From contig JAFLKN010000030.1 of the NCBI GenBank assembly GCA_019163175.1, positions 1-64,000 on the forward strand: a stretch of 64,000 bases of DNA, given 5' to 3'. Below the pieces are notes generated by a model. That model was not told the origin of the DNA. It was given only the letters and a program-made list of their open reading frames with translations, and did not search any database. The DNA comes from Prolixibacteraceae bacterium (GTDB taxonomy: Bacteria > Bacteroidota > Bacteroidia > Bacteroidales > Prolixibacteraceae). Made by a program: the position numbers and the translations under genes. Each line of letters opens with the position of its first letter. Within the stretch, counting starts at the first letter, position 1. This document shows positions 1-2,504 of the stretch, in pieces.

Positions 1-163
1 GGTGTTCCATGCCTTCGAGGTCCTCTTTGGTGTAAACTGGTTTCACCGGAATCTGTTCCGGAGTGATCCAGTTCTTTTCGATCTTATTGGCTGCATTCCA
101 CTCAGCTGTATTTGGCTGGGCTGCTGCCGTTTTGATGTTTATCTTTTGAAAATTAGGTTTCAT
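1..163 (-). CDS. mutB: Methylmalonyl-CoA mutase large subunit, N-terminal fragment (runs off window)
   Basis: Minus-strand ATG at 163-161 opens MKPNFQKINIKTAAAQPNTAEWNAANKIEKNWITPEQIPVKPVYTKEDLEGMEH..., typical of the mutase large-subunit N-terminus; lies downstream of mutA on the same strand. Confidence 0.8.
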   Translation of the reverse strand, partial: MKPNFQKINIKTAAAQPNTAEWNAANKIEKNWITPEQIPVKPVYTKEDLEGMEH

Positions 164-180
164 CTTTTTATGTTTTTGTA

Positions 181-207
181 TCAAGATTCAAGTATCAAGT
201 ATCAAGA
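181..207 (+). repeat. Inverted-repeat arm of cassette (contains the ORF stop codon)
   Basis: TCAAGATTCAAGTATCAAGTATCAAGA; itself built of the heptamer TATCAAG/TTCAAG; ORF TGA at 204-202. Confidence 0.75.
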
Positions 208-558
208 GCTTTTCAATTGTTGTTTGAAGCGAAAGATCATTCGTTGTATTTCCTGAATTTTAATCAGAAAGTCATTGAGTTCCGTTTCTGAAATATAATT
301 GAGATCAAAACACAAATAAAGTTGGGTTTCTACTTCGAATGCTGACCCATTGGCGATGGCCAGAAAGTGAGCAAATTCCTTTTCAGATTCCCGACCGGCC
401 CCTTCTGCAATGTTTGAAGGTATTGAAACTACAGCCCGACACAATTGAGAGGTAATCCCAAATTGCTCTTTTGCAGGGAATTTTGTTGTCAAAGCATAAA
501 CTTCTTTAACAATCTCTCTGCTCTTTTGCCATATTTTCAGTTCCTTGTAATTATGCAT
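202..558 (-). CDS. Four-helix-bundle protein (23S rRNA intervening-sequence / S23 family)
   Basis: 118 aa, MHNYKELKIWQKSREIVKEVY...FGITSQLCRAVVSIPSNIAEGAGRESEKEFAHFLAIANGSAFEVETQL; the SIPSNIAEG and GSAFEVETQL motifs are characteristic of the TIGR02436/PF05635 family. Confidence 0.9.
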   Translation of the reverse strand: MHNYKELKIWQKSREIVKEVYALTTKFPAKEQFGITSQLCRAVVSIPSNIAEGAGRESEKEFAHFLAIANGSAFEVETQLYLCFDLNYISETELNDFLIKIQEIQRMIFRFKQQLKSS

Positions 559-568
559 TTTGGCTTTG

Positions 569-595
569 TCTTGATACTTGTATCCTGATACTTGT
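569..595 (-). repeat. Inverted-repeat arm of cassette
   Basis: TCTTGATACTTGTATCCTGATACTTGT, inverted copy of 181-207. Confidence 0.75.
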
Positions 596-602
596 GTCCG
601 TA

Positions 603-2474
603 TTAAATTCCCAATGTTGACTGGTACGCTTTAAGTTCAGCGAGCAAATTGCTTTTTACATTGATGTAATTGGCAATGCCTTTGGCTTTCAATTCTTCGG
701 TACAGGCAGGAGCACCGGCAACCACGAAGATGGCTTTTCCGGCAACTGCTTCGAATGCGGCAGGAGCAAGTTCAGCATATTCGTCGTCGGAGCTACAAAT
801 AACCACGATTTGAGCGCCAGCTTCCTGAGCAGCTTTCCAGCCTTCTTCAACAGTCTTGAAACCATTGTTGTCGAGTACATCAAAACCAGCCACAGCAAAG
901 AAGTTGCAGGCAAATTGTGCACGGGCTTTGCGCATAGCAAGGTTACCAACCGGCATCATGAAAGCCAGCGGACGTTTGTTGCTTTTGGCGTAAACATCGG
1001 TTTTGTAACGAAGCGCTTCGAAAGCCTGGGCACCACGGTAAGGTTTCAGTGTTTCAATTTCAGCTTCTTCCGAAGTCAGATCAGCCGCAGCAAAAACAGA
1101 AGCGTCAACATCACCTTCAATCTTTTCTGTGAAATTCGGGAACTGGTTTACACCCAACAGATTTTCGCGACGGGTAGCGATGTTCATATCGCGTTTGGCC
1201 GCCATTTTTTTAATTTCAGCCTGAATGAATCCTTCGCGCAATGCGGCAAGGAATCCACCTTTATCCTGAACTTCTAGGAACAGTTTCCATGCCTGATCGG
1301 CAATAGAAGCAGTTAGTTCTTCAATGTAATAGGAACCTGCAGCAGGGTCGGCAATTTTCGAGAAATGCGATTCTTCTTTCAGCAACAACTGTTGGTTGCG
1401 GGCAATACGGTCAGAAAACTCGTTGCTTTCTTCGTAAGCGGCGTTGAAAGGAAGAACAGTGATTGAATCAGCACCTCCCAGAGAAGCACTCATCGCTTCG
1501 GTCTGTGTGCGGAGCATATTCACATAAGCATCGTAAACGGTTTTGTTCCAGCTTCCGGTTTCGGCGTGAATGGTCATTTTTGCTGAGCAATCGCATTTTG
1601 GTTCGTAAGCTTTCACGATTTGTGCCCATAGCAAACGGGCAGCACGCAGTTTAGCTATTTCGAGGAAATAGTTAGCGCTAACCGATAAGTTGAATTTCAT
1701 TTTTTTAGCCACTGTGTCCACTTCAGTGCCTTTTTCGGTCAAAACAGTCAGGTATTCAGCACCCAGAGCCAGTGAGTAAGCCAATTCCTGAACGATTGAT
1801 GATCCGGCGTTTCCGAAGTTTTTGCCATTCACGGCCAAAGTTTTGAACTTAGTCAGTTCAGAGGTTGAGTTGATCAATTTGATCGCATTCTCAATCACGT
1901 GTTCTGCGCCATTGCGGAGAACTCCGGTCAAAGCATATTTTCCAAATGGATCGTATTCAACTGACGCGCGGATCGTTTTCGGATCCCAACCACCTTGTTT
2001 CACGAACGCAGTGAAAGCTTCAGAAGCCCTGCGTGAGCAGCAGCCCACAAAGTTTACTTCAACGGCATCGAGACTAACATCTTTCAGCAAAACATCCAAA
2101 TCGGCAACCGACAATTCGGTCGATGCTTTAAATACGAAAGCCAACGAATCAACCCCTCTCATCAGATAATTCAGGGCTTTTTTGTTGGCTTCAGCGAGGT
2201 CGTTTACTACGATGCTCTGTCGAACTAACCATTCGTTGTTGTTCTTTTTGGTTCCGCGAACGTAAGGAAACTCTCCGGGAAGGCTGTTTAGATAATTCAG
2301 GCTTTCCAGGTCTTCGGCCCGGTAAAACGGCTGAACATCGATGCCTTCGTTTGTTTTCCATACCAATTTCCGGTTGAAATCGGCTCCTTTCAGGTCAGCA
2401 GTAACTTTGTCCATCCACTGCTGGGTGCTGACTGGCGGAAATTCTTCAAATAGGTTGTTATATTTTTCTGCCAT
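603..2474 (-). CDS. mutA: Methylmalonyl-CoA mutase small subunit
   Basis: ORF 603..2507; MAEKYNNLFEEFPPVSTQQWMDKVTADLKGADFNRKLVWKTNEGIDVQPFYRAEDLESL is a typical mutase small-subunit N-terminus, so the start is placed at the internal Met (2474). Confidence 0.93.
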   Translation of the reverse strand: MAEKYNNLFEEFPPVSTQQWMDKVTADLKGADFNRKLVWKTNEGIDVQPFYRAEDLESLNYLNSLPGEFPYVRGTKKNNNEWLVRQSIVVNDLAEANKKALNYLMRGVDSLAFVFKASTELSVADLDVLLKDVSLDAVEVNFVGCCSRRASEAFTAFVKQGGWDPKTIRASVEYDPFGKYALTGVLRNGAEHVIENAIKLINSTSELTKFKTLAVNGKNFGNAGSSIVQELAYSLALGAEYLTVLTEKGTEVDTVAKKMKFNLSVSANYFLEIAKLRAARLLWAQIVKAYEPKCDCSAKMTIHAETGSWNKTVYDAYVNMLRTQTEAMSASLGGADSITVLPFNAAYEESNEFSDRIARNQQLLLKEESHFSKIADPAAGSYYIEELTASIADQAWKLFLEVQDKGGFLAALREGFIQAEIKKMAAKRDMNIATRRENLLGVNQFPNFTEKIEGDVDASVFAAADLTSEEAEIETLKPYRGAQAFEALRYKTDVYAKSNKRPLAFMMPVGNLAMRKARAQFACNFFAVAGFDVLDNNGFKTVEEGWKAAQEAGAQIVVICSSDDEYAELAPAAFEAVAGKAIFVVAGAPACTEELKAKGIANYINVKSNLLAELKAYQSTLGI

Positions 2475-2504
2475 AATATAATGTAACTGTTTAGAAAATC
2501 GGGG

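Follow-up and report, generated by a model that had tools for sequence, protein, structure and literature searches.

The described elements closest to the locus considered here are the intervening sequences (IVSs) of rRNA genes, the origin of which has been unsettled since 1990 (PMC4990558). In Coxiella, the 23S rRNA IVS is reported to combine a 28-bp terminal stem with a sense ORF, to be excised by RNase III and to carry three tandem GACAGAT heptamers just upstream of the S23p start, in a copy number that varies between strains (PMC4990558). The sole solved relative of the protein, the Xanthomonas homologue 2gsc, is a homopentameric torus (PMC4990558). Two further groups of sequences bear comparison, namely the Correia repeat enclosed elements (CREE), which RNase III is able to bind and cleave (PMC2649163), and the TAACTGA repeats, which are intergenic heptamers of some Bacteroidetes and Cyanobacteria (PMC4679880).

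Genes for the IVP ("four helix bundle") family were recovered in 45 of the 61 Bacteroidota genomes sampled, with up to 16 in a single genome. To our knowledge, no function has been established for them.

The cassette between mutA and mutB

The window, i.e., the whole 64,000-nt stretch of Prolixibacteraceae DNA that was analysed, begins at base 1 of contig 13, and the mutB gene at its start is truncated by the contig end. Between this 5' end of mutB (2-163, minus strand; ATG at 161-163), the downstream large-subunit gene that matches full mutB in relatives, and the upstream gene mutA for the methylmalonyl-CoA mutase small subunit (603-2480, minus strand; PF01642, E=9e-149; stop at 603-605) lies an ORF of 118 aa (202-558, minus strand), which has the same orientation as both genes of this metabolic operon. 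The initial annotation had placed a co-oriented IVS-type ORF between the two genes, and family models confirm it (PF05635, E=2e-42; TIGR02436, E=2e-39): the product is a 23S rRNA-intervening-sequence-type four-helix-bundle protein (IVP/S23p). It has no match in PADLOC, and is under purifying selection, with a dN/dS of 0.16 against its orthologue in genome G012 and of 0.05-0.19 across the mut-site copies.

Inverted TATCAAG heptamers lie on both sides of the ORF, forming with it a cassette of about 0.4 kb. The arm at the 3' side of the ORF (178-207) is the heptamer array GTATCAAGATTCAAGTATCAAGTATCAAGA, which fits the nnAGnnn rule described below and includes the TGA stop of the ORF (202-204); the arm at the 5' side (569-598), TCTTGATACTTGTATCCTGATACTTGTGTC, is an inverted copy of the 3'-arm heptamers. 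As both arms consist of tandem heptamers, the inverted repeat can be read in two overlapping registers, one joining 178-199 to 570-591 (22 nt, 91%) and the other 182-207 to 569-594 (26 nt, 77%), and pairing is perfect over the innermost 12 nt (196-207/569-580). The inverted repeats, their perfect inner dodecamer and the stop codon within one arm had all been described beforehand and are present in the sequence; of the limits then proposed, 181-207 and 569-595, the repeat itself stands but its exact extent does not, the arms reaching to about 178 and 598. On folding of the transcript, the arms close the predicted stem (-111.2 kcal/mol, z -4.2).

Flanking arms and the nnAGnnn rule

The flanks of IVP genes in general were compared in a first sample of 144 homologous loci, comprising 84 from named genomes (mostly Bacteroidota, with some from Clostridia, Treponema and Chlorobiota) and 60 from relatives, and in a separate phylum-wide sample of 79 loci drawn with the family model; as several loci are orthologous, they are not all independent. 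In the first sample, the score for inverted repeats between left and right flanks has a median of 15 at a locus's own flanks versus 8 for mismatched loci, and is at least 13 in 99/144 loci versus 5% of mismatched-locus pairs. Among control genes, i.e., ordinary ORFs of 90-220 aa from the genome of the window, such inverted flanks are seen in 3 of 73 (Fisher 5e-22), with no lag-7 signal. The phylum-wide sample behaves comparably, with arms in 49/79 loci versus 2% for mismatched ones. Further, base identity within the flanks of the 144 loci is 0.44, 0.41 and 0.37 at lags of 7, 14 and 21 nt, as against mostly 0.28-0.30 at other lags (0.32 at lag 8) and 0.25-0.30 in the distal flanks; the corresponding three values in the phylum-wide sample are 0.40, 0.38 and 0.35. 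Strong arms are missing at about a third of the loci; arms around homologous ORFs elsewhere, which the initial annotation would lead one to expect, are found at most. The inverted arrays at the mut site are not a product of chance, and cassettes consisting of an IVP gene plus inverted heptamers are widespread across Bacteroidota and beyond.

The genome of the window itself has seven PF05635 copies on its contigs, all of which, by eye, sit inside inverted arrays with a period of about 7 and a word that differs per locus. In its his operon (L002/L007, contig C2:28981-33478), two IVP cassettes with different arm words flank hisA. That solo heptad arrays form a general background was considered and set aside, as 464 kb of this genome contained only a modest excess of them at strict thresholds.

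Analysis of the 114 loci with clear heptads yielded 90 consensus heptamers, in which, after rotation, two positions are constrained: an A (81%) followed by a G (81%). This gives the pattern nnAGnnn, with an alignment score of 327 versus 275-277 for position-permuted nulls. The heptamer is shared by both arms at any one locus and differs between loci, such that nnAGnnn is all that the loci have in common, and this strict grammar provides a concrete handle on what the IVP protein may recognise. The Coxiella heptamer GACAGAT, when rotated to ACAGATG, is consistent with the rule, a fit that, from one published case, would constitute the strongest tie of the cassettes to classical IVSs. The kinship with rRNA IVSs that had been suggested for the mut-site element is borne out by the protein family, the size and these reported heptamers (PMC4990558).

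We put at roughly 0.6 the probability that the mut-site element belongs to a class of small mobile cassettes, in which an IVP-family ORF and inverted terminal arrays of a locus-private nnAGnnn heptamer are mobilised in trans.

Alternative readings and the occupancy of operon junctions

The foremost alternative, which we regard as unlikely, is an RNA-level element: RNase III would excise the sense stem, mobility would go by way of the RNA, which would be reverse-transcribed and inserted, with the IVP in an Avd-like role, and the cassette would amount to a protein-coding IVS of mRNAs. The protein family and size held in common with rRNA IVSs agree with this, as do the stem, tandem GACAGAT, sense ORF and RNase III cut of the Coxiella IVS (PMC4990558) and the arm-closed stem of the folded transcript. 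In the first sample, moreover, 127 of the 144 loci are sense between two co-oriented genes and 1 is antisense to both. However, the obligate sense insertion suggested by this 127:1 ratio was rejected on two grounds: in the phylum-wide sample, sense outnumbers antisense 54:9, no different from the 41:9 of ordinary ORFs (p=0.61), and inspection identified genuine, well-armed cassettes lying antisense within the kdpA/kdpB and MacA/ABC operons. Additional heptad arrays are nested beside the antisense kdpA/kdpB cassette (L316, L319).

Were a sense-RNA stem under selection, the arms would also be expected to contain more G.U than A.C mismatches. For first-sample loci with a score of at least 12 the difference is in the opposite direction (G.U 106 versus A.C 164, p=0.0005), and pooling of the samples gives no enrichment (196 versus 231, p=0.10); because an A bias of the sense strand confounds the comparison, this is to be read as no support for the RNA model and not as its exclusion. 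The earlier suggestion of an IVS that had moved into an mRNA and acts as RNA is hence not supported: the wobble test lends it no backing, antisense insertions exist, and the intergenic form is the common one, against which rRNA IVSs appear rather as a single special location.

As for reverse transcription, the DGR accessory protein Avd (bAvd, PF22296) is a distant homologue of the IVP in the same four-helix fold family. The IVP matches the Avd model phrog_3206 with E=1e-7, is below the cut-off for NF033474, and falls under the curated Avd cut-offs (25.4 versus 40 bits; 30.1 versus 80 bits). This similarity, and the presence of one RT gene in the genome, speak for the RNA-level element; against it, no RT lies within or adjoining the cassette, nor is there any DGR-type RT, TR or VR beside it, and the single RT (PF00078), on contig C42, is away from every IVP copy. 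It is conceivable that this RT serves as a trans partner for the IVP. At the RT locus (L274, around C42:13048-13626), two paralogous small ORFs, by eye resembling DGR variable proteins, precede the RT.

Marginally less probable than the RNA-level element is a resident operon gene, inherited vertically and often lost, whose flanks drift to inverted heptamers that serve to stabilise or terminate the mRNA between cistrons. The purifying selection on the IVP is compatible with this, as are the occurrence of close IVPs at the same locus and of mut-site IVPs, with other words, in distant taxa (Chlorobiota, Adhaeribacter, Prolixibacteraceae). However, grouping of the mut-site IVPs in a single clade, and with it a single ancient insertion at this site, is disfavoured, if only moderately, by the one-clade test (p-AU 0.026). 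Control small genes, further, are without such arms, sister genomes hold unrelated cargo at the same junction, and arms together with ORF are common to different sites.

The junctions were compared in 20 same-genus genomes, with changes counted on the mutA tree. In these the mutA-mutB gap exists in five states: empty, at 12-13 bp, in five genomes (G003, G006, G011, G013, G017); filled by an IVP with TATCAAG arms in two (G000, G012); by an IVP with TTAGATA-type arms in five (G002, G009, G010, G014, G020); by a nuclease-like GxxExxY gene (TIGR04256, PD-(D/E)XK) with CACAAAGACA-type arms in a further five (G001, G005, G008, G015, G022); and by ORF-less hairpins in three (G018, G019, G021). The mutA tree requires 11 changes for these states, the minimum being 4. 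The hisH-hisA gap is either empty (6-9 bp) or contains one of two IVP types, and the hisA-hisF and yicC-gmk gaps are likewise polymorphic, the yicC-gmk IVP being found in G000 only. By eye, no target-site duplication is visible at empty/filled pairs, though the gaps there are short (5-13 bp) and diverged. Homologous exchange of a resident junction plus loss may account for some of the junction polymorphism. Other occupants of these gaps include ORF-less inverted CCTCCCC-rich elements, in the hisH-hisA (L235, L239) and hisA-hisF (L231) gaps, and an insert of ~0.77 kb in the yicC-gmk gap (L258, L263, L268, L269), the first ORF of which resembles, by eye, a minimal nucleotidyltransferase (LFGSYAYG motif); this insert is possibly a two-gene MNT/HEPN-like module.

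Evidence on movement comes from two pairs of homologous cassettes. Loci L041 (ABC permease/ABC ATPase) and L170 (lipoamide dehydrogenase lpd/pyruvate dehydrogenase) have unrelated flanks and IVPs that are 80% identical, and both have a TTCCAAGTT-type left arm and a ACTTGGAACTTGA-type right arm; L109 (MarR/fadB) and L138 (fadB/fadA), again at different sites, have TATACAA-type arms in common. Since both pairs preserve matching arms at different sites, the arms apparently travel with the ORF, and the identity of 80-84% indicates that these were not recent events. Near-identical IVPs are almost always at the same locus, which points to rare or slow movement. ORF-less TATCAAG hairpins are also present at other places in the genome of the window. 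The clean empty mutA-mutB sites in relatives, the arms elsewhere and the shared arms and ORF at unrelated sites support the original proposal of a minimal insert without a recognisable transposase.

The GxxExxY (TIGR04256, PDDEXK_3) loci, L195-L224 among them, make up a second class of armed cassettes in operon gaps, with CCACAGAG/CACAAAGAC-type arms. Inverted arms are present in 26 of 32 such loci, and all 29 for which both neighbours were determined are sense between co-oriented genes. A heptad reading of the arms was rejected, as they have a common CCACAGAG-type word at 8-10-nt spacing and the heptad period is absent (n=32). These loci resemble IVP cassettes in placing a short sense ORF within inverted arms in operon gaps, at the same junctions, but differ in the protein and in their non-heptad arms. 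The arm type thus tracks the cargo, with nnAGnnn heptads accompanying the IVP and CCACAGAG-type arms the GxxExxY protein, an indication that arms and cargo protein may act together. This pairing makes it very improbable that heptad hairpins are themselves the mobile or self-expanding entity, with IVP and GxxExxY genes as passengers captured between hairpin halves, even though ORF-less hairpins of both arm kinds exist and two cargo families occur in similar architecture.

A candidate mechanism and comparison with known elements

As a mobile cassette, the element would itself lack a catalytic enzyme. Its IVP, by way of a ring such as the pentamer of its one solved relative, might bind the heptad arms in their folded state, with each repeat contributing one AG step, and bring in an enzyme, from the host or acting in trans, by which the hairpin is copied or pasted. 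The mobile form would most likely be a DNA fold-back that enters intercistronic gaps where insertion is tolerated, with the IVP ORF usually being transcribed from the host operon. Slippage of the heptamers, together with template switching between the arms, could renew both arms at once, which would explain a word that differs by locus and matches within it. Hairpins that have such arms but no ORF might then be non-autonomous derivatives. A broader formulation, which we hold only tentatively and at somewhat less than even odds, is that these are phylum-spanning transposase-less elements, the ends of which present an inverted grammar of AG every 7 nt to a pentameric IVP ring; rRNA IVSs would be those copies that had inserted into rRNA genes, with the GxxExxY loci as a parallel class with another arm code. 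The cassettes could thereby offer an origin for rRNA intervening sequences, and they expose a source of rapid change at the junctions between core metabolic genes in operons.

A search of the open-access literature returned no account of IVP elements with heptad arms, and an earlier description elsewhere is possible; this is apparently a small mobile element class so far undescribed. The TAACTGA repeats have the 7-nt period and intergenic location of the cassette arms but are direct repeats of one fixed word, as opposed to paired inverted arms around an ORF, and the text of their description makes no mention of four-helix or IVS proteins (PMC4679880). The rRNA IVSs with an S23p ORF, as in Leptospira and Coxiella, have in common with the cassettes the protein family, the ~0.4 kb size, stem-forming terminal inverted repeats around an ORF that is usually sense, and sporadic presence. 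They differ in that the mut cassette lies between protein genes, the neighbours of the sampled loci being protein ORFs, and in that cassette arms are wholly heptad arrays of a locus-private word and some copies are antisense. The NEMIS/CREE-type elements, which are co-transcribed with their neighbours, and other MITEs are, like the cassettes, small, transposase-less, hairpin-forming and intergenic; dispersed copies (seven in the genome of the window) and presence/absence polymorphism are likewise MITE-like. However, a conserved terminal repeat across loci, as in those elements, was not found, the arms matching within a locus only: where NEMIS, CREE and MITEs have one conserved terminal repeat, the cassettes have a rule, nnAGnnn, with changing words, and they additionally encode a conserved protein.
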